From: Balneolaceae bacterium
GTDB lineage: Bacteria; Bacteroidota; Rhodothermia; Balneolales; Balneolaceae
Assembly: GCA_006969905.1 (NCBI GenBank)
Contig: CP030887.1
Location: forward strand, 1,116,001-1,180,000
Reading direction: 5' to 3'
Length of the DNA stretch: 64,000 bases
Each line of letters begins with the position of its first letter. Positions within the stretch are counted from its first letter, which is position 1. Below are positions 22,770 through 59,254 of the stretch, piece by piece. The position numbers were made by a program, and so were the translations under genes. The notes beneath the pieces were generated by a model. It searched no databases, was not told the origin of the DNA, and worked only from the letters and a program-made list of their open reading frames with translations.

Positions 22770-22873
22770 AACAAAGGGTTGGCAAAACATCTCACTTCAG
22801 CCAATAGAATACAAGTTGACTTAAAGAAGAATTGTTCCCTAATTAGTACAAATAAAAATAAGGCGTTGTAGTG

Positions 22874-23359
22874 ATGAAAAAGCTAAGGCGAAAATTCTTT
22901 TTTTGGATGGAGCAGTTGCAAATCTCCCGGAAAGAGCGCATTACCATTAGTTCGCTTTTAGTTCTTGTTATAATGATGAGTGCGATAAACTCACTGCTTA
23001 CTCAAAAACTTAACTACCAGCAGGAAGATTATGATTTATTGGTTGCAGAATTTGAAGCCAGAAGTGAAACCATGAAACAGCGCCTTTTAGAAGAAGAAAG
23101 AAAATATACTCCTCTACCAGAATCCACAAAACAAGGAGATACTCTCCTCGTTTCCAGTGAGTCATCCCTGTCAATAAACATCAACACAGCAAATTTAGAA
23201 GAACTGCAAAAGCTGGAAGGAATTGGTAAAACGTATGCTCAAAGAATTATTGACTACCGGATAGAACACGGAAACTTCAATTCGGTTGAAGAATTAATTA
23301 ACGTAAAAGGAATAGGAAAAAAACGACTGGAAAAGATCGCTCCTTTTGTCAAACTTTAG
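22874..23359 (+). CDS. membrane-anchored ComEA-like helix-hairpin-helix protein
   Basis: A 161-residue protein. A basic N-terminus is followed by one hydrophobic helix ([20 protein letters not shown], about 24-43), then a charged linker. A C-terminal pair of helix-hairpin-helix motifs follows at about 100-161 ([20 protein letters not shown], then [20 protein letters not shown] and [12 protein letters not shown]). HhH pairs of this ComEA kind bind double-stranded DNA without sequence preference, and ComEA proteins act in DNA uptake. The same domain, clearly paralogous, ends the PLD-like protein at 52223-54151. It precedes porX by 19 bases. Confidence 0.8.
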
Positions 23360-23378
23360 CCGAAATTAAAACAAGCTT

Positions 23379-24920
23379 ATGCCAAACATACTTTGGGTTG
23401 ACGACCAGATCGATCAGCTTCGTTCACATATTATTTTCCTGGAGAAGAAAGGCTTTGATATCGTTCCGGTTAGCAACGGGGAAGATGCCGTTACGATGAT
23501 TTCGGAACAACCATTTGACATCGTTTTTCTGGATGAACAGATGCCGGGAATGGGAGGAATTGAGACGCTGGAACTCATCAAAAACCTGAACCCTTCGCTT
23601 CCTGTGGTAATGATCACCAAGAGCGAAGAAGAGTCAATAATGGAAGATGCGATTGGCGGGAAGATTTCAGATTACCTGATTAAGCCGGTAAACCCTAACC
23701 AGATTTTATTAACAACCAAGCGGATACTGGAACGATCAAGGCTGCAAAATGAAAAATCTGCACAAACCTATTTGCGCCAGTTCGGGGAATTGTCAGCAAA
23801 AATACATCCGGGCATAAGCTGGAGAGAGTGGATTGAAATTTACAGGGAGTTAACGCGCTGGCAGATTGAATTGGGCTCAGGGGATGAAAACCTGGTACAA
23901 GTGCTGAACGACCAATTCCAGGAAGCGAATAAAGAGTTCGGGAAGTTTATTGAAAATGAATACCGAAGCTGGCTGCAAAATGAAGAAGGCCGTCCGGCTC
24001 TTTCCGCAGATATTTTCGATAAATATGTGAGGCCACATGTGGAAAAGGGCGAGAAAACGATGTTCTTCATTATTGATTGTATGCGGTACGATCAATGGTT
24101 GTCTTTTGAGGCAATACTATCCGGGTTTTATAGTATAGAGACTGATTTTTACTACTCTATTTTGCCAACAGCAACGCCCTATTCAAGGAATGCCATTTTC
24201 GCAGGCTTAAACCCCTTTGATATCGAACGATTGTACCCGGAGTTGTGGCAGCAAGGCCAGGATGAAAAGTCGCTGAATCGAAATGAAGAAGAACTGCTCA
24301 AACGTCAGCTTGATCGTGCAGGGATAGATATCAAATTTAAATACGAAAAAATCCTTACAGCGGAAGAAGGAAAGCGGGTTTCTGATAAAATGCACAGTTT
24401 TGCACAGTCAAGACTGGCAGCATTTGTCTACAATTTTGTGGATACCCTGGTGCATTCCAGGTCCGATTCAGAGGTAATCAAAGAGCTTGCCCCGGATGAA
24501 GCAGCTTTTCGTTCTATAACAGAAGCCTGGTTCCAGCATTCTCACTTACTGCAAATGTTTAAGGAGCTGGCAGAGGAAGATGTGACAGTGGTTATTACGA
24601 CTGACCACGGTTCAGTTCGCTCGCTAAGGGATACCAAAGTTTACGGAGACCGGGATACGGCAACGAATCTTCGTTATAAATATGGCCGCAACCTGAAGGC
24701 AGAAGAAAGAAATGCCGTTTTCTTCATCGATAAACCGGAAGATTACAAGCTCCCGGCCATTTCGGGGGTTAATAATTACATTATTGCCAAAGAAGATTAC
24801 TACTTCATCTATCCTACCAACTATCACAAATTCCAGAACCGTTACCGCGATACGTTTCAACATGGCGGGGCTTCCATGGAAGAGATGATTTTACCTATAG
24901 CAACACTCAGGCCCAAGTAA
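23379..24920 (+). CDS. porX: PorX: response regulator with PglZ/alkaline phosphatase-like domain
   Basis: A 513-residue cytosolic regulator of the type IX secretion system. The receiver domain (1-115) has the phospho-acceptor D52 in [12 protein letters not shown], with T80 and K102 of the usual set. A PglZ-type alkaline phosphatase superfamily domain follows at about 220-513, with metal ligand candidates D233 ([12 protein letters not shown]), D409-H410 (TTDHGS) and H495 (FQHGG). This fusion is the PorX signature. The P. gingivalis protein acts with the kinase PorY and hydrolyses oligonucleotides. It sits between a ComEA-like gene and tsaE, as a functional mix of neighbours. Confidence 0.92.
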
Positions 24921-47595: not shown

Positions 47596-48201
47596 ATGTT
47601 TACAGGAATTATTCAGGAAGTGGGAACAGTAAAGAAAGCGGAAAGCCTGAACGAAGGAGGGATGCAATTTGAGGTTGAGTGTTCATTTGCCTCAACATGC
47701 CATTTGGATGAAAGTATTGCCATAAACGGAGCCTGCCACACGGTTACTGCGTTTACAGACAGAACGTTTACGGTTCAGAGTGTAGAAGAAACTCTACGTA
47801 AAACCACGATGGGAGCCCTTAATACCGGTTCAAAAATCAATCTTGAGCGATCTATGACTTTACAATCGGGCATTGAAGGGCATTTGGTACAAGGCCATGT
47901 TGATATTACAGGTACTATTACTTCGATTGAAAAAGAAAAAACAGGCTGGTTAATAGAGGTAGAGTTTCCATCAGAATTTGAAAATATGATTGTAGGGAGG
48001 GGAAGTATTACGATGGAGGGAATAAGCCTTACTATTGCAAGAGAGCATGGTAATAGTTTTGTGGTGGCAATAATCCCTTACACATGGGAGCATACCAACC
48101 TTAAAGAAAAAACCGTTGGCGACCAGGTAAACCTGGAGTTTGATGTAATAGGCAAATATGTAGTGAAATATCTAAGCTCGATTGGCAGGGATTCTCTCTA
48201 A
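47596..48201 (+). CDS. ribE: riboflavin synthase alpha subunit
   Basis: A 201-residue enzyme that dismutates two lumazine molecules into riboflavin. It opens MFTGIIQEVGTV, the family start, and has two lumazine-binding repeats (SIAINGACHTVTAFTDRTFT near 41, and GSITMEGISLTIAREHGNSF near 136). LEGH-type LQSGIEGHLVQGHVD lies between. The stop overlaps lptD's stop on the other strand by four bases. It is the second gene of the ribD-ribE pair. Confidence 0.94.
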   Translation: MFTGIIQEVGTVKKAESLNEGGMQFEVECSFASTCHLDESIAINGACHTVTAFTDRTFTVQSVEETLRKTTMGALNTGSKINLERSMTLQSGIEGHLVQGHVDITGTITSIEKEKTGWLIEVEFPSEFENMIVGRGSITMEGISLTIAREHGNSFVVAIIPYTWEHTNLKEKTVGDQVNLEFDVIGKYVVKYLSSIGRDSL

Positions 48202-50855
48202 AACCTTCTTCCTGTAGGCGAAGAATTTCTTTCCAGGTTTTTAAGAACAGGTAGTTTTTGGAACAAACTTTGAATCTGCGCGCTATTAAGAGTCAGGCTA
48301 AAAAAGTAATACTGGAAGTCGCCGAAAGGACGGATCTGAAAAGATAAGTCCCAACATTCCAAGTTTCGTGTAAGATTAAAGTCAGATGGGGTTATTTCTT
48401 TCTGAATAAAATCATAACCAATCTGGGTACTGAAATTCCATTTAGGAGTAAGCCTGAAAGTTATATTTTGGGCATTAAGAATAGCGTTTTTATTAGGATC
48501 AGCGTTGGGTCTCAGTGTCCAGCTATAACTGAAGTTTAAGGAAAACCTCCAGGGTGAGTCCAGGGGAGGAATGATCTCGTCATTAAAATAAGGGTCAATA
48601 GCCCTGAAAATAGACTGATCAAAAGGGTCATAATCCCTCCTGTAAACAGGAGTGTATACCTGCACACCATTAGAACCGCCTTTGAATGATGTGCTGGCAT
48701 TGGCCGTAAAGCGTTCAAGCCGGAAGGGTTTAAAGCCCTGATCGGATATTAGAAATTGATTTACCCTGATTCCGTTTTCATTCCTTTTATAAAAATCAAA
48801 ATCAGCAGATACCCTGAAATTGAATCCCGGAACAGCATTGGAAGAAAGATTTGTTCTAAGGGTAGCCAGCTTTAAACTATCAGCCGCAAAATTATATGAG
48901 CTGGAAAGATTCAGGTTGTCAATCAGCTTCAGGTTTCTTTCAGTTACTTCTCCCGTTGTATCCCTGGTTACAACCTTCGTTTCAAACTGGTTACCGATAC
49001 GAAATGTTAAAGAGCGGCTTTCTCCGCGTCCTGGCCCGCTAAAAACCTGGTCTTCAAAAATAGAATATACCTGTGTATTTCCATTAGTATCACTTTGAAC
49101 GGTTCGGTAGTATCCAAACTTTGGATCACTGAAATCCGGGCGATAGGAAAAACCGATTACCGGTTGAACGGTATGCCGAAAGCCTTCCATTCGTCCAATT
49201 TTTGCATTGCTAATGCCATAGAAGGTCGTGGACATGTTGAGCCCGGTGCTAAAATCTCTGGCAGCCGTAAACCCAAGTTCTTTGGATGATTCAACCCGGT
49301 TTGAATCCGCATTAAAAGTTCTTCTGGTGGTAGAAGGAAACCAATATTCATTTGCACTAATATTCCCTGAGACATTGATGAATGGAATGGAAAGCAGCTG
49401 GCTTATCTGGATGGCTGCAGTTTGCCGAAAACCATACTGGATATAATCATTATTACCGGTTGCTTCACGGTATTGATCGGGATCAAATAAAGCATCGATA
49501 AACCCGATTTCTGTTGAATCATCATCAATTGGGTTAAAGTCAAAAGATGAATTAAAGTTGTTATTGTATCGAATTGAAATACTCTCATACCATTTAGGTT
49601 TTGAACCCGCACTTGCTTTGAAAGGAGTTAATGCCTTTAAACTAAAAGAGGAGCTGGGGCCACTCAGCGAAGTAGTATTATTTGTGAAGTTTTGAGCGAG
49701 CTGAGAGTTAATGCTAAAGTTGAATAAGTTTTCAGGGTGGCGATATTTATAGGAAAGCTTGGAGTTTGAATTAGTTTGGGCCCGTTCATTTATATCATAA
49801 GAGTTCCGGGTTAAATAATCTGCTGTTCGTAAATTTATATTGGCACTAATGGATGAATAAGGTGAAAACTCCTGGCTGTGATTAAGGCCCAATGAGCGTT
49901 GTACTGTTGTTGTAAATCCGGGATCTGTTTTTTCCAGTCCTCTCTCCCTGGAATATCCGATCTGAACAGAACCGTTAAATAAGCCGGTTTTCCGGTATTG
50001 AATATTTGTCGTGGTAAAGAATGTACCCGATGTAAAAACATCACTGCTAAAAGTTCCGGTTATATAGTCATTGAAATATTGAAACCAACCCAAATTCTGA
50101 AGCCCGATTCCTCTTGTTGATTGTGCCTGGAAAGCATAAGTAGGTGTTAGTAATCCCGATCTGCGTTTCTCGAAATCTGCCGGAACATAACCAAAAGGAA
50201 ATACCAACGGATAAGGAATATCCAATATAAAAAGTCGGGCATTGGTGAAGAAGATTTCCTCCTCGTTAACCACCTTCATTTTTTTTGCCTTTATGTAGTA
50301 GTAAAGGTAATCAGGGGGGCAGGTTGAATAAATTCCGTCTTCAATAAAAACCTCATCCTGGCTTACATTCTTAATTTTTGAACCAATCAGGTATCCATCC
50401 GGTACTTGTATCCGTGCAGTCTCGAACTTTCCCTTTTGTGTAGTATAATTAAAAAGAATGCGGTTACTTCTGATCTCGTCTGATTCACGTTTTAGCACAG
50501 GATATGATAAGGTATCCTCTTCAGAAGCGGCGGTAGCCTCTATAGTTGTTTTAGCAATATCCATTTCAATTTCGCCGGCTGTTAACTCTCCGGCAGAATG
50601 CGAAACTTTAGCAGAGCCATAAAGGAAAGCCTTCCTGCCATTCCGAAAGTCTACAACCAAAGAATCGTTGGATTGAAACTCCACGGCATCTTTCACAGTG
50701 CTTTTTTTTGCCGGAGAAGCGGGAGCGGTTTGAATACCAGGCACGGCTGTAGTGTCTTCTTCCACTAGTTGCCCGGATACTGAAACAGATAAAAGCATAA
50801 ACATGCAAATACAAGTGTAGTATTTACCTATGTATGCAAATCTGCTATAATCCAT
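48198..50855 (-). CDS. lptD: LPS-assembly outer-membrane protein LptD-like
   Basis: An 885-residue outer-membrane protein. The signal peptide is weak (YYTCICMFMLLSVSVSGQ). An OstA/LptA-like jellyroll at about 55-190 (FRNGRKAFLYGSAKVSHSAG, YNYTTQKGKF-type strands, FIEDGIYSTCPPDYLYYYIK) precedes a large beta-barrel with the family phrase IPYPLVFPFGYVPADFEKRR then SGLLTPTYAF. It inserts lipopolysaccharide into the outer leaflet. It ends far from a typical aromatic beta-signal, as in other Bacteroidota LptD. It precedes no close gene downstream; ROK kinase gene lies upstream on the same strand, 10 bases away. Confidence 0.85.
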   Translation of the reverse strand: MDYSRFAYIGKYYTCICMFMLLSVSVSGQLVEEDTTAVPGIQTAPASPAKKSTVKDAVEFQSNDSLVVDFRNGRKAFLYGSAKVSHSAGELTAGEIEMDIAKTTIEATAASEEDTLSYPVLKRESDEIRSNRILFNYTTQKGKFETARIQVPDGYLIGSKIKNVSQDEVFIEDGIYSTCPPDYLYYYIKAKKMKVVNEEEIFFTNARLFILDIPYPLVFPFGYVPADFEKRRSGLLTPTYAFQAQSTRGIGLQNLGWFQYFNDYITGTFSSDVFTSGTFFTTTNIQYRKTGLFNGSVQIGYSRERGLEKTDPGFTTTVQRSLGLNHSQEFSPYSSISANINLRTADYLTRNSYDINERAQTNSNSKLSYKYRHPENLFNFSINSQLAQNFTNNTTSLSGPSSSFSLKALTPFKASAGSKPKWYESISIRYNNNFNSSFDFNPIDDDSTEIGFIDALFDPDQYREATGNNDYIQYGFRQTAAIQISQLLSIPFINVSGNISANEYWFPSTTRRTFNADSNRVESSKELGFTAARDFSTGLNMSTTFYGISNAKIGRMEGFRHTVQPVIGFSYRPDFSDPKFGYYRTVQSDTNGNTQVYSIFEDQVFSGPGRGESRSLTFRIGNQFETKVVTRDTTGEVTERNLKLIDNLNLSSSYNFAADSLKLATLRTNLSSNAVPGFNFRVSADFDFYKRNENGIRVNQFLISDQGFKPFRLERFTANASTSFKGGSNGVQVYTPVYRRDYDPFDQSIFRAIDPYFNDEIIPPLDSPWRFSLNFSYSWTLRPNADPNKNAILNAQNITFRLTPKWNFSTQIGYDFIQKEITPSDFNLTRNLECWDLSFQIRPFGDFQYYFFSLTLNSAQIQSLFQKLPVLKNLERNSSPTGRRF

Positions 50856-50865
50856 AAATTAAGTT

Positions 50866-51810
50866 TTAAGCAAAAGAGTCGAAGGCCAGGCCTGCTGCAC
50901 CTAACAAAGCGCTGTCATTGCCAAGGTCTTCATAAACCAATTCCAGGCCTTCCTGGAACGGAGCCATCATATGCTTCTTAATAATCTGTCGGGCTGGTTC
51001 AAAGAGCCAATCTCCCGCACGAGAAACGCCCCCGCTAAGTACATATTTCCTGATGTCCATCATATGAGTATAGTTAATGATGGCATATCCAAGGCGTTCG
51101 CCACTTTTCCTGAGTATTTCTATGGCAAGCTCATTGCCTTCTTCTGCAGCGTTTGTCAGGTCTATCGGTTCCAGCTTTTCAAAAGACTTTGAAAATTTTT
51201 TATAGAGGGGATTTTCAGGATTTTGCAGAATCATATCAGAAGCGAATCTGCTTAAAAATCGTTGCCCTAAGTATGCCTCAACAGTTCCCCGGGTAACACT
51301 GTTTGAAAGAGGGCCGTGATAGTCAAGAATAACATGCCCTAACTCACCTGCCATGCCTGTGCTACCTTTAAAAATCTGCCTGTTTATAATGATGCCTCCG
51401 CCCACTCCTGTTCCAAGAGCAATCAAAATAAAATCATTGAAATTTCTTCCCACACCAAAATGTAAAGACCCAATGGCGGCTATATTGGCATCATTTTCAA
51501 TCCGGCATTTCAAATTAGTCCGCTTAGTGATTTCTTCGGCAGCATTAACCACCACCCATCCCGGTAAATTAGGGGGGCTTTTTACCGTGGTTTGATCAAG
51601 GCTCACCATTCCGGGCAGCCCCATACCTACACCAATTGTTTCAAAACGCTGGGACAGCGAGTTGATGGTGTTTCCGAGCCTATCCAGTAAATGATCCTTT
51701 CCTAAATCAGCGTGTGTGGGTATTGAAAGCTTCTCAAGTATTCCCTTTTTTTTATCAACGACAGCGGCTTTTATATTGGTGCCACCTAAATCTACAGCAA
51801 TTGCTTTCAT
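50866..51810 (-). CDS. ROK-family sugar kinase, glucokinase-like
   Basis: A 314-residue cytosolic kinase. ATP-site blocks are AIAVDLGGTNIKAAVVDKKK and LIALGTGVGGGIIINRQIFK; the catalytic Asp sits in CRIENDANIAAIGSLHFGVG. The conserved ROK zinc motif (CxCGxxGC) after GHV is absent: the region reads GELGHVILDYHGPLSNSVTR. Phosphorylation of glucose or another hexose is likely by family, but the missing zinc site leaves substrate open. It lies 10 bases upstream of lptD. Confidence 0.8.
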   Translation of the reverse strand: MKAIAVDLGGTNIKAAVVDKKKGILEKLSIPTHADLGKDHLLDRLGNTINSLSQRFETIGVGMGLPGMVSLDQTTVKSPPNLPGWVVVNAAEEITKRTNLKCRIENDANIAAIGSLHFGVGRNFNDFILIALGTGVGGGIIINRQIFKGSTGMAGELGHVILDYHGPLSNSVTRGTVEAYLGQRFLSRFASDMILQNPENPLYKKFSKSFEKLEPIDLTNAAEEGNELAIEILRKSGERLGYAIINYTHMMDIRKYVLSGGVSRAGDWLFEPARQIIKKHMMAPFQEGLELVYEDLGNDSALLGAAGLAFDSFA

Positions 51811-51838
51811 CAGAGCGAATATAAAAATTCAATATTGG

Positions 51839-52144
51839 TTAGTTTTCGCGACGGATTTTATATACCGTTTCTCCCGGTTTTCTCATGCCATACTCTTCCC
51901 GCGCTATTTTTTCTAACAAGGCGGTATCTTCTTTTAAGCTTTCGATCTTTTTGATCAGTTCTTTACTGTCTTTGTTCAGTTGCTCAGTACGGGCTTTAAG
52001 GTCTTCTTTTTTACTGCTTAATTCCCACCTTGTTGTAAGACTATAGCTGTCAACAAAGCTAAACCAAACAATCACAAAGGCAGACAGAAAACCAATCAAA
52101 ACAGATTTTTTCCACCTAATTGGATTCAGGAAATCAAAATTCAT
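51839..52144 (-). CDS. FtsB/DivIC-like septum formation initiator
   Basis: A 101-residue protein with one N-terminal transmembrane helix (SVLIGFLSAFVIVWFSFVDS, about 15-34), then a coiled coil (SSKKEDLKARTEQLNKDSKE). The tail LLEKIAREEYGMRKPGETVY is the family's signature end. FtsB/DivIC proteins join the divisome through FtsL and FtsQ/DivIB. It precedes the ROK kinase by 28 bases on the same strand. Confidence 0.88.
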   Translation of the reverse strand: MNFDFLNPIRWKKSVLIGFLSAFVIVWFSFVDSYSLTTRWELSSKKEDLKARTEQLNKDSKELIKKIESLKEDTALLEKIAREEYGMRKPGETVYKIRREN

Positions 52145-52222
52145 ATTAGCCGTGAGTGTATATTTTTCTTTGTAGTATTTGAAAATACATTAATTTGGGT
52201 ACTAATAACAATCTGAGAGTTA

Positions 52223-54151
52223 ATGAAAACGCTATTTTATTCATTACTGCCACACTTTTTTTTAGCGATATGTTTTAGCAGCACAGGAGAGGCACAGGAT
52301 GCAGAGTGGATCAAAGTTTACTTTAATATGCCTGCGGATACAACCCTGGCATTTCCGGGTAATGTAGCTAATCACAATACAGATTTAATTGGCACATTAG
52401 AAGCATTAATAGATTCAGCTACTACCAGCATTGATTTGAGTATTTATGACCTGGAGCATCCCAGGATAGTACACGCCTTGGTGCGGGCAAAACAGAGGGG
52501 TGTACGGGTGAGATTAGTTACAGATAACTATAACCGAACAGATGGAGGGGAAATAGATAAAGAAGTATGGGCCAGATTACGTGAAGGGGAAATCATTTCT
52601 ATTGACGATGATGGAGATATATACCATACAAATGGTACAATTGAAGATAACAGCCTTATAAATGCCGGAGCAGACATGCATCATAAGTTTGCAGTTATCG
52701 ACTATAAATCCGAAAGCACAGAAGATGACTTTGTTTGGACAGGTTCTACAAACCTTACCTATACCGGGGCTTTTAATACAAATAATGTAATCGTAATAAA
52801 AGATACAGATGTAGCCAGGGTATATACTGCCGAATTTGAGCAAATGTGGGGGAGCCAGGGACCCTTTCCTGATCCTGCAAACTCAAGGTTTCACAAAGAC
52901 AAGCTGAAAATAGAAGATCAGCTTTTTGATGTTGGGGGTACTAAGGTTGAAATTCACTTTGCCCCAATCGACAGGGAAAAGAAGAAGAGGCTTGTTGGGG
53001 ATAGGATCGCTGAGCTTATTCGTACAGAGGTACAAAAGGATGTCCGTTTTCAGGCTTTTTCTATCACTCCGGGAATAGCCATAAGTGAAGCTATATGGGA
53101 TGTCACCGAAAATGAAAACATAGTGCTTGAAGGGGTAATAGATCGAAGCTTTTATTATCGCTACAAAGGAGCAAATCAAATCTGGGGCAGTAACAAAGCC
53201 CAAACCGGAAATCGACTAGTGCTTCCTGCAAATGAAATGAGAAAACTGCACCATAAGATATTATTACTGGATGCTGGTAATGAAGACGAAGGTGATGAGG
53301 GTATTGTAATTGCCGGGTCGTATAATTTTTCAAATAATGCAGATAGAAATAACGATGAAAATTTGTTGATTATTTATTCGGATAGCATCGCAAATCAGTT
53401 CCTACAGGATTTTTCCGGTACACTTAAACGAGCAAAAAGAGAGTCTGATCCACCTTATCCGGTAGTAGATCCCAATATATGGTACAATGTGTATTCTGTA
53501 AGTGATGGAAGCAGGTTTGAAATAGAAGTAGCACCCGGTTTTGGTTTTCCTGTTGGTCTGTTAGGGGTAAACGTTCCGAGAATATTTGCCGGCCCTGACT
53601 CGTCCGAATATTTCTCGGTACCCTCGGCCAGGTATCTCAGAAATCTTATTGAGGGTACTCAAGTTCGTGTTTATGATTTTGACGGAGGCAAGCCATATGG
53701 CAACCGTGGCAGGTTAACAGGTTACGTTGAGTTCAGGACAGATGATGGAATTTGGCCCTTAAACAAAATACTGCTTCAAAAAGGTTATGGGGTATATTCA
53801 TCTGCGCTAATACAGAATGAAGATTCTGTCATAGCCTTCAAAAAGTACCAGAGCGAAGCAAAAGAGAACCGCTTAGGACTTTGGAAGCAGCCTGAAAGGA
53901 TTGGCACTAAAGTGCTGAGAGCAAAAGAAATTGATAGAAATGACGGGCTTGATCTGGTATACCCGATTAATGTTAATACCGCTGACCTGGCAACCCTGCA
54001 ACTGCTCCCCGGGATCGGGGCAACTTACGCTAACCGGATTATTGAATACAGGGAAGAACATGGCGGATTTAACTCTTCAGAAGAGCTGTTGAACATAAAA
54101 GGTATTGGTGAAAAACGGCTGGAAAAAATAAGGCCATTAATCACCTTTTAG
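52223..54151 (+). CDS. exported PLD-like nuclease fused to an SNase-like and a ComEA-like HhH domain
   Basis: A 642-residue secreted protein. The signal peptide is about 1-24. Two phospholipase D halves follow: HKD motifs DMHHKFAVID (H153-K155-D160) with VWTGSTNLTYTG, and LHHKILLLD (H343-K345-D350) with IVIAGSYNFSNN. A staphylococcal-nuclease-like barrel lies at about 425-555 (RLTGYVEFRTDDGIWPLNKI, LLQKGYGVYSSA, AKENRLGLWKQ), but the usual DTPE acidic site reads GVNVPRI. The C-terminal ComEA-type HhH pair is at about 580-642. By family it should cut and hold DNA or phosphodiesters outside the cytoplasm. Its stop overlaps the sigma gene's stop by four bases. Confidence 0.82.
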   Translation: MKTLFYSLLPHFFLAICFSSTGEAQDAEWIKVYFNMPADTTLAFPGNVANHNTDLIGTLEALIDSATTSIDLSIYDLEHPRIVHALVRAKQRGVRVRLVTDNYNRTDGGEIDKEVWARLREGEIISIDDDGDIYHTNGTIEDNSLINAGADMHHKFAVIDYKSESTEDDFVWTGSTNLTYTGAFNTNNVIVIKDTDVARVYTAEFEQMWGSQGPFPDPANSRFHKDKLKIEDQLFDVGGTKVEIHFAPIDREKKKRLVGDRIAELIRTEVQKDVRFQAFSITPGIAISEAIWDVTENENIVLEGVIDRSFYYRYKGANQIWGSNKAQTGNRLVLPANEMRKLHHKILLLDAGNEDEGDEGIVIAGSYNFSNNADRNNDENLLIIYSDSIANQFLQDFSGTLKRAKRESDPPYPVVDPNIWYNVYSVSDGSRFEIEVAPGFGFPVGLLGVNVPRIFAGPDSSEYFSVPSARYLRNLIEGTQVRVYDFDGGKPYGNRGRLTGYVEFRTDDGIWPLNKILLQKGYGVYSSALIQNEDSVIAFKKYQSEAKENRLGLWKQPERIGTKVLRAKEIDRNDGLDLVYPINVNTADLATLQLLPGIGATYANRIIEYREEHGGFNSSEELLNIKGIGEKRLEKIRPLITF

Positions 54152-54897
54152 GCAACAGCATAGCTGTGAAGAGAAGTTTTAAGGTTCATTAAAATCTTCC
54201 CGATTATTTGGGATATACGTGCTTCAGAAAGTTCTACAACAGAGGCAATTTCTTTTAAGGTATATTCTTCATAATAGTAAAGTCCAAGAATGACTTGCTC
54301 GCGCTCAGGCAATTTCTTTACAGCACGTGCCAGCGCATTTTTCATTTCAGTATTCATTAAATCTGCATCAGGGGACTGGAAGGTTTGATCTTCGATCATA
54401 CTTGCCACACTAGAAGAATCCGAGTCATCAATTGTAGTCTCCAAAGACAAGGCAGAACGCTGCTGTACTACACTTAAAAGGTCTTCATAATCAGATAAAG
54501 AAATACCCATTTTATCAGAAATCTCAGCATTGGTAGGGGTTCTTCCAAGTTCCTGCTGCAGTCCCTGAATTGCTTCCATTGATGTCCCATAAAGTTTACG
54601 CTTTGTGCGTGGTAACTCATCAATGCTTCTTAAATAGTCAATGATGTTGCCCCTGATTCTGTAATAGGCAAACGTATTGAATTGCACATCTTTAGAAGGG
54701 TTGTAAGATTCGAGTGCTTCCAGCAATCCTTCAACACCTATGCTTTCAAGGTCTTCATAGTTTGTCAAAGAATTGGATGGTAAGTTAATCTTGCCAACAA
54801 TACTCTTAACCAGTGGAATCATGTCTTTAACGATAAGACTTTTGGAGTGCTGATCACCTAGAGCTTTGTAATCCGAAATTAATTTTTGCGTATTCAT
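54148..54897 (-). CDS. FliA/WhiG-type (sigma-28-like) RNA polymerase sigma factor
   Basis: A 249-residue group 3 sigma factor with regions 2, 3 and 4. Region 2 is at about 35-105 (YEDLESIGVEGLLEALESYN, FNTFAYYRIRGNIIDYLRSI), region 3 at about 105-165 (LQQELGRTPTNAEISDKMGI) and region 4 at about 185-245 (LPEREQVILGLYYYEEYTLK, EIASVVELSEARISQIIGK). No flagellar genes are in the window. Two small ORFs lie divergently at 54989 and 55147. The anti-sigma control usual for this group is not otherwise visible. Its stop overlaps the PLD fusion gene by four bases. Confidence 0.88.
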   Translation of the reverse strand: MNTQKLISDYKALGDQHSKSLIVKDMIPLVKSIVGKINLPSNSLTNYEDLESIGVEGLLEALESYNPSKDVQFNTFAYYRIRGNIIDYLRSIDELPRTKRKLYGTSMEAIQGLQQELGRTPTNAEISDKMGISLSDYEDLLSVVQQRSALSLETTIDDSDSSSVASMIEDQTFQSPDADLMNTEMKNALARAVKKLPEREQVILGLYYYEEYTLKEIASVVELSEARISQIIGKILMNLKTSLHSYAVA

Positions 54898-54988
54898 ATT
54901 GTACCAAACGTATTATTAAAATTTTCTAACACAATTATATTAAAAAATCTTAATAATTAAAAATTTCTAATAAATAAATTCTTCTCCT

Positions 54989-55126
54989 ATGAAATCAACC
55001 TTTATGGTTCCAAAAAGGAAGATTTTTCATGAACATGATTCTATACAGGTAAAAAGAATTGAACAGTGGGTTAAGAATTCTGAGAGTAAGACGATAAGCA
55101 TGGTAGAAGTTAATGCTAACACGTAA
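54989..55126 (+). CDS. possible small ORF divergent from the sigma factor gene
   Basis: A 45-codon ORF (ATG 54989 to TAA 55126), basic and then acidic, with one amphipathic helix (DSIQVKRIEQWVKNSESKT). No family is recognised. It lies 91 bases from the start of the FliA-type sigma gene in an otherwise non-coding stretch. A CTTCTCCT tract precedes it but no clear Shine-Dalgarno. Could be chance. Confidence 0.3.
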   Translation: MKSTFMVPKRKIFHEHDSIQVKRIEQWVKNSESKTISMVEVNANT

Positions 55127-55146
55127 CCCAGCTGGGAATCAAAAAG

Positions 55147-55299
55147 ATGAAAAGCGACAAGAAAAAAAGTCTAAAGAATCAACCTAAAGAGAGCGCGAAA
55201 ATGATGAGTGATGATAAATTAAACTTTTATTTAACTGACAAAAGAGTACTAAATAAAGTTGTGGAAGGATTAATAGCTGATTTGGAAATGCTCAAGTAA
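55147..55299 (+). CDS. possible small basic ORF next to the sigma factor gene
   Basis: A 50-codon ORF (ATG 55147 to TAA 55299). The N-terminal half is lysine-rich (KSDKKKSLKNQPKESAK) and the C-terminal half predicts as one helix ending VLNKVVEGLIADLEMLK. It starts 20 bases after the previous small ORF. An anti-sigma role like FlgM is imaginable from place and size, but no FlgM residues are matched. Could be chance. Confidence 0.35.
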   Translation: MKSDKKKSLKNQPKESAKMMSDDKLNFYLTDKRVLNKVVEGLIADLEMLK

Positions 55300-55300
55300 A

Positions 55301-55339
55301 AGAAAAGAAAAAACCCCTTCCGAGGTCAATCGTAAGGGG
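55301..55339 (-). terminator. intrinsic terminator of tRNA-Lys
   Basis: On the minus strand a stem CCCCTTACG (55339-55331) pairs with CGGAAGGGG (55322-55314), one mismatch, and is followed by a T-rich run (TTTTTTTCTTTTCT). It is 45 bases after the 3' end of tRNA-Lys. Confidence 0.75.
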
Positions 55340-55383
55340 CTGGTCAAGAGAGAGTCAATATGAACTCTTAGGGGATATTTTTG

Positions 55384-55456
55384 TGATCCGGGTGGGACTC
55401 GAACCCACGACCCACGGCTTAAAAGGCAGTTGCTCTACCAACTGAGCTACCGGATC
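55384..55456 (-). tRNA. tRNA-Lys (anticodon TTT)
   Basis: A 73-base tRNA on the minus strand. The acceptor arms are GATCCGG and CCGGATC with discriminator A. The D arm reads GCTCAGTTGGTAGAGC. The anticodon loop is CTTTTAA with anticodon TTT at 55423-55421. The T arm is GTGGGTTCGAGTCCCAC. One mismatch sits in the anticodon stem (ACTGC with GCCGT). No CCA is encoded. Confidence 0.95.
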
Positions 55457-55480
55457 TCCAATCGCTATTGCGAAAGACTT

Positions 55481-55512
55481 CAAAGATAAGGCTTTTACGT
55501 AAAAGAGTACAA
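55481..55512 (-). promoter_or_regulatory. Bacteroidota-type promoter of tRNA-Lys
   Basis: On the minus strand, TTG (55512-55510), 21 bases, then TATCTTTG (55488-55481). This has the same elements and the same spacer as the tRNA-Leu promoter. It lies 24 bases before the tRNA 5' end. Confidence 0.75.
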
Positions 55513-55532
55513 GCCGGATTAGCCAAGAAAAA

Positions 55533-56036
55533 TTAATTTTTCTTATGATTTGATGGAAGTGTTTGTTTTAGAATTAAAACTAAATCCTGTTCAATCGACA
55601 ATTTTGGTTCTTCCTCAATTCTTCCTATTTCCATACCATTTCGAAAAACAAGAAATGTTGGATTAACACGGATAGCATATTTCCCGGAAGTGCTATCTGT
55701 TTCGTGTGTGTTATAATCGATTCCTATATATGTAGTGGTGATCAGTTTATTATGGGATTGCTCTAAAATTTTAAAAAAAGAAGGGACATGTTTTTTACTG
55801 TCCTTACACCAGGTACCTAGTACAGTTACAATATGAATTGAGTCCTCAAGTTGGCTAAGGTAATCAATGGCTACTGAATCGGGTTGGTATCGCTTTGCAT
55901 AAAGATCAAAAACAGGATGCTGATTACGGATTTGTTGCTCTGTTATGATACCTGCAATATGAGCATTTTGTGCTATGGAGGAGTTAATGCAAAAAATAAA
56001 AGAGTAAAAAAAAACTGTAGTTGAGAACTTATACAT
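55533..56036 (-). CDS. exported thioredoxin-like protein
   Basis: A 167-residue protein with a signal peptide (TTVFFYSFIFCINSSIAQ). A thioredoxin fold follows: LGTWCKDSKKHVPSFFKILE carries one active-site Cys (WCKDS, second Cys replaced by Ser), and VNPTFLVFRNGMEIGRIEE holds the cis-proline and last strand. With one Cys it cannot make the usual dithiol; a role in thiol reduction or binding by mixed disulfide is inferred. It is a single gene facing the HIT gene divergently. Confidence 0.75.
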   Translation of the reverse strand: MYKFSTTVFFYSFIFCINSSIAQNAHIAGIITEQQIRNQHPVFDLYAKRYQPDSVAIDYLSQLEDSIHIVTVLGTWCKDSKKHVPSFFKILEQSHNKLITTTYIGIDYNTHETDSTSGKYAIRVNPTFLVFRNGMEIGRIEEEPKLSIEQDLVLILKQTLPSNHKKN

Positions 56037-56090
56037 AGATAAGGAATTCTGTTTTGGAGCGCTTATCTTCTTGAAAACCTGATTCAGACT

Positions 56091-56489
56091 ATGGCTTCAA
56101 TATTTACTAAAATAGTGAAAGGTGAAATTCCTTCATATAAAATTGCAGAAGACAATAACTATTTTGCATTCCTGGATATAAACCCGATAGCTGAAGGACA
56201 TACGTTGGTTATTCCCAAAAAAGAAGTGGATTATATTTTTGACCTGAATGATGAAACACTGTCCGGTTTAATCCAATTCTCAAAGAAAATAGCTAAAGGT
56301 ATAGATCAGGCATTGGGAACCATCCGAACAGGTATTATTGTGGAGGGTTTAGAAGTTCCTCATGCACATGTCCATCTGATCCCAATTTACTATGATGGCC
56401 AACCTGTGAGCCTGGGCAAAAAAATTAATGTGCCCGAGGAAAGAATGAAAGAAGTAGCAACACTCATTTCTAATTCGGTTGAAGTATGA
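56091..56489 (+). CDS. HIT-family (histidine triad) nucleotide hydrolase
   Basis: A 132-residue protein of the Hint group. It opens FTKIVKGEIPSYKIAEDNNY and the triad is VPHAHVHLIPIY (H-A-H-V-H). ILDINPIAEGHTLVIPKKE is the standard strand. Hint proteins cleave AMP-linked phosphoramidates. The last four bases overlap the aroQ start (ATGA). Confidence 0.92.
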   Translation: MASIFTKIVKGEIPSYKIAEDNNYFAFLDINPIAEGHTLVIPKKEVDYIFDLNDETLSGLIQFSKKIAKGIDQALGTIRTGIIVEGLEVPHAHVHLIPIYYDGQPVSLGKKINVPEERMKEVATLISNSVEV

Positions 56490-56917
56490 AAATATTGGTT
56501 GTACATGGCCCAAATCTCAATCTTTTAGGAAAAAGAGATACACAGGTGTATGGTTCGATTACATTGGAAGAACTGAATGAGTTTATTCAAAAAGAAAACC
56601 CCGGTCATGATTTCACGTTTTTTCAAAGTAACGTTGAAGGTGAGATAATAGATAGGTTGCATCAGGCACTAAAGGACGGAACCGGAGGAATTATAACCAA
56701 TTTGGGAGGATATACTCATACTTCTGTGGCCTTAAGAGATGCACTTGAGCCAATATCCATTCCCAAAGTTGAAGTGCATTTATCCAATATTCATGCACGG
56801 GAGGTATTTCGGGAGCAAAGCCTGACCGGTAAAGTGATGGACGGTATTATAACCGGGTTTGGGAAACACAGTTACCTGCTTGGTGTACAAGCGCTAGAAC
56901 ATCTATCGAAATCATAG
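56486..56917 (+). CDS. aroQ: type II 3-dehydroquinate dehydratase
   Basis: A 143-residue dodecameric enzyme of the shikimate pathway, dehydrating 3-dehydroquinate. Signatures are VVHGPNLNLLGKRDTQVYG (with the catalytic loop Arg and Tyr), FFQSNVEGEIIDRLHQAL, IITNLGGYTHTSVALRDAL and VEVHLSNIHAREVFRE with catalytic His. It is translationally coupled to the HIT gene. AroC of the same pathway is at 38498. Confidence 0.95.
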   Translation: MKILVVHGPNLNLLGKRDTQVYGSITLEELNEFIQKENPGHDFTFFQSNVEGEIIDRLHQALKDGTGGIITNLGGYTHTSVALRDALEPISIPKVEVHLSNIHAREVFREQSLTGKVMDGIITGFGKHSYLLGVQALEHLSKS

Positions 56918-56920
56918 CTA

Positions 56921-58393
56921 TTGAAGCAATTAAAAGAACTTTTTTCTGATACACTTGTTTATGGCATAAGCAGTGTTTTTGCCCGCTTTTTGGGTTACCT
57001 GTTAGTTCCGCTTTATACAAATATCTTTGCTCCGGGCGAATATGGTATCGTTGGTTTGGTTTTTGTGGCAATAGCCTTATTCAATGTTCTTTTCACAATG
57101 GGTATGGAGTCTGCCTATATCCGTTATGCAAAAAACAGAGACCGGGCAAAAGATATTTTTAAAACCCTTCAGCTATTTTTGATTGGGACTTCTTTGCTGT
57201 TGGGGGGCTTGGTTTGGTTATTACAACCCATTATAGCACCCCAGATTGGGTTGAACCCAGGCAGCTCTATCTATTTAATGATGATAGGTATCCTTGTTTT
57301 TGATACGCTGGCAATTATACCTTTTGCAGAACTGCGCCTCGTTAGAAAGTCAATAGTCTTTGCCGTTCTACGCACCGCAAACATTGCCCTAAACCTTGGA
57401 ATAAATTTTTACCTGATACTAATCAAAGGTTTTGGGATCGAAGCAGTATTTATTTCTTATTTCGTAGCGTCCTTTGTAACAGCATTTGTAATATGGATTA
57501 TCACTCTGCCTTTATGGAAAGGCAGTTGGGATAGAGAGATGCTTGAAAAAAGTATCAGGTTTGGACTTCCTTTTATCCCGGCAGGCATTGGGTATGTTAT
57601 AAACGAAATGTTAGATCGCTTTTTTTTAAAGGAAATGTCGACAGACTCCATAATCGGGATTTATGGTACTTCTTATTCTGCGGAAGATATTGTGGGTATT
57701 TACAACGCGTGTTACAAGCTGGCGGTATTTATGCTGTTGATCGTACAAATGTATCGGATGGCATGGCAGCCCTTTTTTATGAGGAAGTCGGAGGATGAGG
57801 ATGCTCCAAAATTATTTGCTCAAAGCTTTAACTATTTCAACCTGGCTGCAGCTGTTGTTTTTCTTGTCGTATCTTTGTTTGTAAATGAAATCGTGGCTAT
57901 TAAAATCCCATTTACAGAAGCTACTTTAATTGGGGATAGTTATTGGCTTGGGTTGAGTATAGTACCTGTGCTACTTATGGCCTATTGGTTTCAGGGATGG
58001 TATGTTAATTTTTCTGCCGGTATTTTTATCAGCGAGAAAACAAAAGAGCTGGCAAAAATTACTTTAATTGGCGGGGTTATTACCATTGCTCTTAATCTTT
58101 TGCTCATTCCCCATTTTGGAATGATGGGTTCGGCATGGGCAACTTTTTTCAGTTACGCCAGCATGGCAATGTTGATTTATCGCTACTCCGTAAAGTCATT
58201 CAAAGTACCCTATCAATTGGTTAAAAATGCAGGAGTACTATTTATTTGTGGTGCAGCTGTATGGATTAAACCTTTTTTAACTGATCTGAATTTTTCTGAA
58301 CTTACAGCATCATTTACATTATTTATTACAGCACTTATTTTGGTTGGACTGGTACATATTGGCACTTTCTCAATATCAAAAAGCAAGGGATAA
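56921..58393 (+). CDS. MOP-superfamily polysaccharide flippase
   Basis: A 490-residue membrane protein with about 12-14 helices, of the Wzx/oligosaccharide flippase type. It opens LFSDTLVYGISSVFARFLGY then LLVPLYTNIFAPGEYGIVGL, the family N-terminus. IRFGLPFIPAGIGYVINEML and DRFFLKEMSTDSIIGIYGTS lie mid-protein. It should flip a lipid-linked sugar across the inner membrane. Start is TTG 56921, three bases after aroQ, so the HIT-aroQ-flippase run is one transcript. No glycosyltransferases are beside it. Confidence 0.88.
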   Translation: MKQLKELFSDTLVYGISSVFARFLGYLLVPLYTNIFAPGEYGIVGLVFVAIALFNVLFTMGMESAYIRYAKNRDRAKDIFKTLQLFLIGTSLLLGGLVWLLQPIIAPQIGLNPGSSIYLMMIGILVFDTLAIIPFAELRLVRKSIVFAVLRTANIALNLGINFYLILIKGFGIEAVFISYFVASFVTAFVIWIITLPLWKGSWDREMLEKSIRFGLPFIPAGIGYVINEMLDRFFLKEMSTDSIIGIYGTSYSAEDIVGIYNACYKLAVFMLLIVQMYRMAWQPFFMRKSEDEDAPKLFAQSFNYFNLAAAVVFLVVSLFVNEIVAIKIPFTEATLIGDSYWLGLSIVPVLLMAYWFQGWYVNFSAGIFISEKTKELAKITLIGGVITIALNLLLIPHFGMMGSAWATFFSYASMAMLIYRYSVKSFKVPYQLVKNAGVLFICGAAVWIKPFLTDLNFSELTASFTLFITALILVGLVHIGTFSISKSKG

Positions 58394-58438
58394 TCAGCTA
58401 AGTAACGCTGCAATAGTATTATTCAAAAAGAAGAAGAT

Positions 58439-59254
58439 ATGAGATCAAGGCAACGTATAGGTATTTATGTAGATGCAGTAAATGTCACGATGAATGGTGG
58501 CTTTGGCCTTCGGTATGATATTCTAAGAAAATTTGCATGCAGGGGTGGTGGTATAGCTTCAAGGTTGAACGTTTATCTTTCGTATGATGAAGAACGCCTG
58601 AAAACAGATGCCGACTATCGAAAAAAAACTATGCGTTTTTGTGAGGTATTGAGGGATTTTGAATACAAAGTCACAGAAAAACCAGTTCAAACCTATACTA
58701 ATCACGAAACAGGAGAAAAAATATCCAAGTCTACCATTGATATGGATATGGCGGTTGATATGCTTACCCAGTCAGATCACCTTGATAAGATAGTTTTGCT
58801 AACCAGCAATGGCAGCTACTGCAGTGTGGTTAATGCTATACAGGATAAAGGCTGCCGCGTGGAGTTGTTAGGCTTTGACAATATATCGGGTGTATTGAAA
58901 AAAGCGGTAGACTCTTTTGTATCCGGTTATGTAGTTCCGGGAATATTACCTGTAGAGTCTCCGTATGCCTGGGGAGAAGTGGGATCCAGGGTTCGTGGTG
59001 TCTGCTATGATTTTTCCCAAAGCGACGGGTATGGCTTTCTACGTTTTCTCACAAAAATGAATGATAATCTCTGGATCACTGATTCAAGAGATGAGGAATC
59101 TCCTTATAAAACCATATTTGCACATATTTCCCAGTTTGAAGAAAACCTAGATACCAGTTACCTGCCCAGCCGGGAGCTCATCTTTGAATTCGACCTGGTA
59201 GAAAACGACAAGGGCTTGATTGGTGAGAATATTGTATTGATTTCTGCTCCATAA
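58439..59254 (+). CDS. NYN-domain protein fused to a cold-shock-like domain
   Basis: A 271-residue cytosolic protein. Residues 5-165 form a NYN (PIN-like) ribonuclease domain of the LabA/DUF88 group: RIGIYVDAVNVTMNGGFGLR with D12 and N15, SKSTIDMDMAVDML with D101-D107. The third acidic motif, usually SGDSDF, reads TSNGSY. Residues about 185-268 resemble a cold-shock RNA-binding domain (SQSDGYGFLRF, FAHISQFEENLD, FEFDLVENDKGLIGENIVLI). The fusion suggests an RNA-cutting or RNA-binding protein. It follows the flippase by 45 bases and stands before a minus-strand terminator. Confidence 0.75.
   Translation: MRSRQRIGIYVDAVNVTMNGGFGLRYDILRKFACRGGGIASRLNVYLSYDEERLKTDADYRKKTMRFCEVLRDFEYKVTEKPVQTYTNHETGEKISKSTIDMDMAVDMLTQSDHLDKIVLLTSNGSYCSVVNAIQDKGCRVELLGFDNISGVLKKAVDSFVSGYVVPGILPVESPYAWGEVGSRVRGVCYDFSQSDGYGFLRFLTKMNDNLWITDSRDEESPYKTIFAHISQFEENLDTSYLPSRELIFEFDLVENDKGLIGENIVLISAP

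Follow-up and report, generated by a model that had tools for sequence, protein, structure and literature searches.

The question raised by the gene at 52223–54151 on the plus strand of a 64,000-nucleotide stretch of Balneolaceae bacterium DNA (GCA_006969905.1, contig CP030887.1, positions 1,116,001 to 1,180,000; hereafter the window) is what purpose is served by a single polypeptide in which two phospholipase D (PLD) halves, a staphylococcal nuclease (SNase)-like barrel and a pair of helix-hairpin-helix motifs, (HhH)2, follow one another. We infer that the product is exported, cuts nucleic acid, binds DNA, tolerates salt and has a nutritional role, and conclude that it is probably an exported, salt-tolerant nuclease that scavenges environmental DNA. 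The three-part domain make-up, which an initial annotation of the same DNA had described, was confirmed. The open reading frame runs from an ATG at 52223 to a stop codon ending at 54151, with strand and length as given in that annotation, and Pfam revealed PLDc_2 twice (E 1e-34), SNase at residues 444–556 (E 7.2e-9; 36.5 bits, the cut-off being 21) and HHH_3 at residues 582–641 (E 2e-21), all above the curated cut-offs. The parts of the gene are the following.

52223–54151, plus strand: whole fusion gene, PLD – SNase-like – (HhH)2, 642 amino acids; open reading frame with translation, present at full length in 44 of the 92 genomes of the family, counting its own
52223–52294, plus strand: signal-peptide-like N-terminus with a hydrophobic stretch and a probable cleavage site GEA/Q25 (by eye); Q25 unchanged in all 13 homologues compared
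52403–52849, plus strand: first PLD half, residues 61–209 (PLDc_2)
52679–52702, plus strand: HKD1, H153-x-K155-(x4)-D160, invariant in 47 of 47 sequences
53033–53416 (genome 1169033–1169416), plus strand: second PLD half, residues 271–398 (PLDc_2)
53249–53272, plus strand: HKD2, H343-x-K345-(x4)-D350, invariant in 47 of 47 sequences
53468–53890, plus strand: SNase-like barrel lacking the catalytic residues, residues 416–556; Pfam SNase at 444–556 and structure match with Z 15.3
53564–53581, plus strand: GVNVPR (448–453), site of the lost D40/E43, from alignment to staphylococcal nuclease and family counts
53966–54145, plus strand: ComEA-type (HhH)2 domain, residues 582–641; HHH_3 E 2e-21, TIGR00426 60 bits (cut-off 53.1)

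Conservation was counted in an alignment of 47 sequences, comprising 43 of the 44 full-length proteins of the family, the window's own included, and four proteins from other families of the order; the protein of genome G044 was omitted because of an internal TAG. HKD1 is accompanied by GS-x-N177 and HKD2 by GS-x-N368, so that two HxK(x4)D motifs with a downstream GSxN, in halves which both exceed the curated cut-off, identify the protein as a two-HKD member of the PLDc_2 family of the PLD superfamily. H153, K155, D160, S175, N177, H343, K345, D350, S366, N368 and E379 are the same in 47 of 47 sequences; both HKD halves, with their motif residues and the partner asparagine, are thus intact, as had been claimed.

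A profile of the PLD core, built from 12 sequences, was searched against the PDB sequences. It found eight distinct chains at E ≤ 1e-3, namely Nuc (2.9e-19), six chains of Zucchini/MitoPLD and NucT (9.6e-12), while the bacterial lipid PLD 7e0m reached only E 0.04. The Zucchini/MitoPLD chains are deposited as mitochondrial cardiolipin hydrolase, yet a passage of PMC8004604 treats them as nucleases. By profile, the PLD core is therefore nearer to nucleases than to lipid PLDs in eight of eight chains, which supports a core that would lean to the former. Among the NCBIfam matches of the fusion were NucT, DrmC and DpdK, all under their cut-offs; the cardiolipin synthase models of NCBIfam gave no match up to E 1. 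Nuc, Zucchini and NucT have one HKD per chain and form homodimers, whereas the fusion has two HKDs in one chain; it is hence not filed as a member of the Nuc/NucT group and is only said to work like one.

An AlphaFold2 model of the fusion, made from 13 aligned sequences, had a mean predicted local distance difference test (pLDDT) score of 82.5 and a predicted template modelling (pTM) score of 0.74. Searching the PLD core of this model (residues about 25–410) with VIA-align gave PLD3 as the top match (Z 31.5, 312 residues, 2.8 Å, 15% identity), with lipid PLDs close to it, as discussed below.

The last 238 residues of the fusion, when folded alone, gave a model with pLDDT 83.2 and pTM 0.66. Its barrel matched staphylococcal nuclease with Z 15.3 over 132 residues at 2.8 Å (model residues 12–151, corresponding to 416–555 of the protein), and Foldseek on the same C-terminal model also listed SND1 (Tudor-SN), a larger multi-SNase protein with the same barrel fold. 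Pfam, which found the SNase domain in 13 of 13 homologues scanned, and the predicted structure thus agree on an SNase-like barrel, and prediction of the 425–555 region, which the initial annotation had proposed as a check, yields an SNase fold.

In the alignment to staphylococcal nuclease, N450-V451-P452-R453 occupies the place of the D-T-P-E stretch, whose acidic residues we take to be D40 and E43; S430 presumably stands at the position of D21, as placed via a D-G-D-T motif. The active thermonuclease set is taken to be D21, D40, E43, R35 and R87, where the equivalents of D40, E43 and R87 were placed by printed alignments and those of D21 and R35 by motif spacing as we assume it to be. Equivalents were kept as follows: D21 in 0, E43 in 0, D40 in 22, R35 in 32 and R87 in 11 of the 47 sequences. 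The barrel does not have the residues of an active thermonuclease; with the D21 and E43 equivalents gone throughout, it looks catalytically dead across the lineage, and GVNVP would be one version of an old loss. The noted absence of DTPE-type acidic residues, with GVNVP in their stead, therefore holds well beyond the window, and unlike the catalytic S. aureus nuclease, the fusion would offer a natural case of an SNase barrel that keeps its fold with its catalytic residues gone throughout a lineage. SNase matches in the family were found at 46 places in 45 of 92 genomes, and 44 of the 46 sit in the fusion.

The C-terminal end has two HhH hairpins above the curated cut-offs of HHH_3 and TIGR00426 and is of the ComEA type, on which the best PDB sequence for this end, ComE operon protein 1, agrees. 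This end is kept in 47 of 47 sequences; of the hairpin glycines, G599, G627 and G629 are present in 47 of 47 and G597 in 44 of 47. The whole-protein model for ComEA of competence (TIGR01259) was matched by the HhH region alone (63.3 bits against a cut-off of 152.35).

Judged by eye from the N-terminus, the protein is presumably exported. A relaxed lipobox pattern fits the N-terminus of 7 of 47 homologues, five of them convincing by eye (L069, L070, L074, L076 and L090). The type IX secretion system (T9SS) sorting domain Por_Secre_tail was not among the families matched by Pfam in the 13 homologues scanned, so that a place in the periplasm or at the cell surface is as possible as secretion. Of the earlier description as secreted, the signal-like N-terminus stands and the passage across the outer membrane does not gain support.

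For the mechanism, it is proposed that the two HKD halves would come together as a single active site of PLD-superfamily type that needs no metal, in which one HKD histidine would attack the phosphodiester and the other would serve as acid/base. The SNase barrel, having lost its own chemistry, may act as a spacer or as an additional nucleic-acid-binding surface or clamp, and the C-terminal ComEA-type (HhH)2 would grip DNA non-specifically, so that the enzyme stays on the DNA at salt levels that would otherwise loosen its hold. In marine and saline habitats, the breakdown of environmental or periplasmic DNA would supply nucleotides or phosphate. Use of environmental DNA, as had been suggested, thus remains the likeliest role, whereas the special tie to a small membrane protein that came with the suggestion did not hold (see below).

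The closest precedent is DNaseTA of Thioalkalivibrio sp. K90mix, which, according to passages of PMC4777378, is active up to 4 M NaCl owing to a C-terminal ComEA-derived (HhH)2; adding (HhH)2 tails to bovine DNaseI gave higher salt tolerance (same passages). Like the fusion, DNaseTA is a bacterial protein with a C-terminal ComEA-type (HhH)2 on a nuclease domain (the PLD core counting as nuclease by its profile), and it comes from a halotolerant host. Unlike the fusion, it has a DNaseI-like (EEP) catalytic part and no SNase barrel, and its activity was measured, whereas the fusion is known from its sequence. With PLDc_2 in place of EEP, the fusion is not filed as a DNaseTA member; it has the same design with a different catalytic family. 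Since PLDc_SF stands among the architectures carrying this HhH domain in the Fig. 2 legend of PMC4777378, the PLD–HhH pairing is already in print, at least in that legend. A nuclease with a ComEA-type (HhH)2 is therefore a known pairing, and the order PLD – dead SNase – (HhH)2 is a new variant of it; no recognisable description of the three-part protein was found in the open-licence literature searched. EEPD1 (PDB 9yi2), likewise from a nuclease family, also matches this HhH family (E 1.4e-13), but has two HhH stretches (chain residues 61–116 and 154–214), belongs to the EEP family by name and shows no SNase.

On the catalytic side, H. pylori NucT (PDB 6ehi) and Nuc (PDB 1byr) share the HKD chemistry and are among the best sequence-profile matches, but have neither SNase nor HhH. 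PMC5714352 describes NucT as periplasmic or membrane-associated and implicates it in purine salvage and natural transformation, and the role of the fusion may, by analogy, be comparable. PLD3 and PLD4, lumenal 5′ exonucleases of which PLD3 is lysosomal, resemble the fusion in two HKD-type motifs per chain and in nucleic-acid breakdown outside the cytosol; in PLD3, however, the second motif is HKE (PMC10783504). T9SS-exported PLD proteins of the wider phylum (for example L093, L096 and L101) have a related two-half PLD core, with ~31–41% identity over the matched part, but consist of PLDc_2 and Por_Secre_tail, often with DUF5689 or fn3, and lack SNase and HhH.

If the scavenging nuclease is correctly identified, bacteria exposed to salt would have combined the same ComEA-type DNA grip with two or more unrelated nuclease families, one DNaseI-like (Thioalkalivibrio) and one of PLD type (here). 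The ComEA-type tail would then be a transferable module that enables nucleases to act in salt, and the protein a metal-independent, salt-tolerant DNase of laboratory use.

Several observations weigh against this assignment. According to a passage of PMC10783504, two HKDs per chain are typical of lipid enzymes and PLD nucleases are usually dimers of one-motif chains, PLD3 and PLD4 being the exceptions to the one-motif rule; these two were absent among the 18 matches of the PLD-core profile at E ≤ 1 in the PDB sequences. In the VIA-align comparison, the lipid PLD 7e0m (Z 30.8) and vaccinia F13 (Z 30.5) are tied with PLD3 within Z 1, and Foldseek puts 7e0m first, ahead of PLD3; owing to this tie, the substrate is not named by the fold alone. 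By composition, no strongly basic DNA-binding surface is apparent in the PLD halves, which are acidic (net −16 and −5; medians of the 47 sequences −19 and −5), or in the window's own HhH end (net −1; median +1). The ComEA tail of B. subtilis gave much less salt tolerance, to about 1.6 M, than that of the halotolerant host, as stated in a passage of PMC4777378. Finally, the gene is missing from 28 of the 66 family genomes of good quality (≥90% complete, ≤5% contaminated; 66 of 92 qualify) and is therefore dispensable.

Full-length homologues, with 47–61% identity besides the window's own, were found in 44 of the 92 family genomes and in 38 of the 66 of good quality, with Balneola, Gracilimonas and Fodinibius halophilus as the named relatives with the nearest matches, which places the genome probably in or close to Balneola; halophilic members of the family are described in published abstracts. 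Within its own 3.49-Mb genome, the gene is the sole full-length match, and two other matches cover the HhH only. Sampling 394 genomes across the phylum gave 32 matches that spanned PLD and SNase, all in the same order (28 in the same family, four in others); the query used there ended before the HhH end, and the HhH of the four other-family proteins, read afterwards, was present. Among 16 more distant relatives of the PLD core scanned, eight had a T9SS sorting tail and none had SNase or HhH.

The gene lies at a conserved locus, marked by a divergent neighbour.

51839–52144, minus strand: DivIC/FtsB-like neighbour, marker of the conserved locus; Pfam DivIC E 1.1e-15

DivIC adjoins the fusion gene or its remnant, with LptD beyond, in all 36 loci, which come from 34 genomes (genomes G343 and G074 counted twice, one locus being the remnant described below), where only relatives of chosen window genes were sought; HIT was found in 22 of the 36, where some of the stretches are short. 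DivIC also served to check 13 genomes lacking a full-length match: 12 had no PLD match within ~1.5 kb on each side, and HIT and aroQ were close by in 5 of these 12. The thirteenth, genome G019 (L082:5130-5631), has a collapsed remnant of the fusion at the usual place, in which the first PLD half survives at its start and the HhH end is retained, but the middle has been lost and the frame is interrupted. Among 26 plasmid records matching the fusion, none covered over 80% of the query; the best covered 57% (the PLD part) and the others the HhH part alone, and spread of the fusion by plasmids is disfavoured on this ground. The simplest account is a gene of long standing in the order that has been passed on by vertical inheritance, with repeated losses.

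According to Pfam, the neighbours of the gene in the window from 47596 to 59254 comprise riboflavin synthase-like, LptD, ROK, DivIC, sigma factor, thioredoxin-like, HIT, dehydroquinase, polysaccharide flippase-like and NYN proteins; no phospholipid enzyme, DNA-uptake gene or recognisable defence gene was among them. At their stop codons, the fusion gene shares four bases with the sigma factor gene, which is convergent to it (window 54148–54151). A separate observation concerns other bacteria, where the PLD core is paired with a lamin-tail domain above the Pfam cut-off in L016, L017 and L018; this domain is a recurrent partner of exported nucleases.

Three other explanations were weighed. The first, which we consider rather unlikely, keeps a nuclease acting on extracellular DNA but assigns it other ends, such as loosening of biofilms, clearing of DNA released by lysis or destruction of phage or plasmid DNA at the surface. 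The anatomy would be the same, the lipoprotein-like N-termini in at least five of 47 homologues would hold the protein at the cell surface, and PADLOC gave weak DrmC-like PLD matches for the fusion (E 5e-9), the matches in PHROGs and PADLOC being generic. However, the DrmC match spans one PLD half and lies far under the NCBIfam cut-off (39.3 against 133 bits), and the window neighbours held no recognisable defence gene by Pfam, the defence library having been run on the fusion alone.

An improbable second explanation is a periplasmic nuclease of the DNA-uptake machinery, whose ComEA-type end would take incoming DNA and whose PLD part would trim or degrade one strand before ComEC. The genome has ComEC, DprA and three T2SSE-family ATPases of pilus or secretion type, the implication of NucT in natural transformation (PMC5714352) offers a parallel in a PLD nuclease, and the absence of a T9SS sorting domain in 13 homologues allows a periplasmic stay. 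Against this, ComEC occurs in all 38 good-quality genomes that have the fusion and in 26 of the 28 that lack it (64 of 66 in total). Being near-universal, it makes co-occurrence with DNA uptake, a comparison suggested at the outset, uninformative rather than positive, and no association is shown. The neighbours include no uptake gene, and of the 28 good-quality genomes lacking the fusion, 27 retain a small HhH frame.

The third explanation, a lipid or other phosphodiester enzyme (phospholipase- or cardiolipin hydrolase-like) in which HhH and SNase bind something besides DNA, is likewise held to be improbable. It would account for the ties in fold with lipid PLDs, one of which Foldseek ranked first, for the two HKD motifs per chain and for the envelope gene LptD close by. 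The ComEA-type HhH and SNase are, however, nucleic-acid domains by family, and the profile matches at E ≤ 1e-3 are all Nuc, Zucchini/MitoPLD and NucT. The genome also has other two-half PLD proteins: one two-HKD protein matches cardiolipin synthase TIGR04265 (E 1.8e-79, 267.9 bits, cut-off 290), and a third PLD protein adjoins a CDP-alcohol phosphatidyltransferase. Homologues lacking the HhH end beside lipid enzymes, which had been named as contrary evidence, were not seen among the 47 aligned sequences, all of which have this end, and no phospholipid enzyme stands among the window neighbours; HhH-less relatives do exist among the distant PLD-core proteins, where none of the 16 scanned has SNase or HhH. 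Highly unlikely is a periplasmic PLD3-like nuclease, held by the ComEA-type domain and a dead SNase clamp, which would process incoming DNA as the strand-degrading uptake nuclease of the lineage.

Besides suggesting the use of environmental DNA, the initial annotation had linked the HhH end of the fusion to a small membrane protein of the same window.

22871–23359, plus strand: small membrane protein with GTG at 22871 and ATG at 22874, same HhH family; adjoins PorX in 21 of 21 loci; a related domain, the partnership not borne out

Both HhH strings quoted in that annotation are present in the respective open reading frames, and the two domains share 67% identity over 61 residues, or 65% over 63 columns. 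Membership of the same family was therefore upheld; a special similarity was not. Of 17 same-genome pairs of fusion and small-protein HhH domains, just one had its own partner as the best match, and that as a tie; for the window's own fusion one foreign small protein was closer (68%); the pair of genome G074 was excluded, its small protein having two HhH units. These counts lead us to reject a gene-specific partnership of the two domains as well as gene conversion between them. In a tree of 72 HhH rows and 63 columns, fusion and small-protein domains stand together against three outside rows (98/90), and the 22 small-protein rows, as a single clade, branch from among the fusion rows. No direction of capture is drawn from this tree, since its columns are few and its outside rows number only three, with a very long branch among these.

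A shared role with the fusion gained no support either: the small protein lies ~29 kb away, adjoining PorX, and of the 28 good-quality genomes without the fusion, 27 keep a small HhH frame and 26 keep ComEC. In all 21 family loci examined, the small ComEA-like protein is next to PorX (T9SS_RR_PorX, 742.5 bits; window 22871–24920). PorX is a T9SS response regulator, and the small protein tied to its locus is of DNA-binding type. In genome G074 (L125, G074:C224), a ComEA-like small protein carries two tandem (HhH)2 units in one frame of 280 amino acids. Another HhH of the window's own genome (L003, G000:C1:273331-273516, minus strand) lies near the start of a 694-amino-acid open frame that appears outer-membrane-barrel-like by eye, and frames of 684–733 amino acids with an L003-like HhH match were found in at least 14 other genomes of the family.

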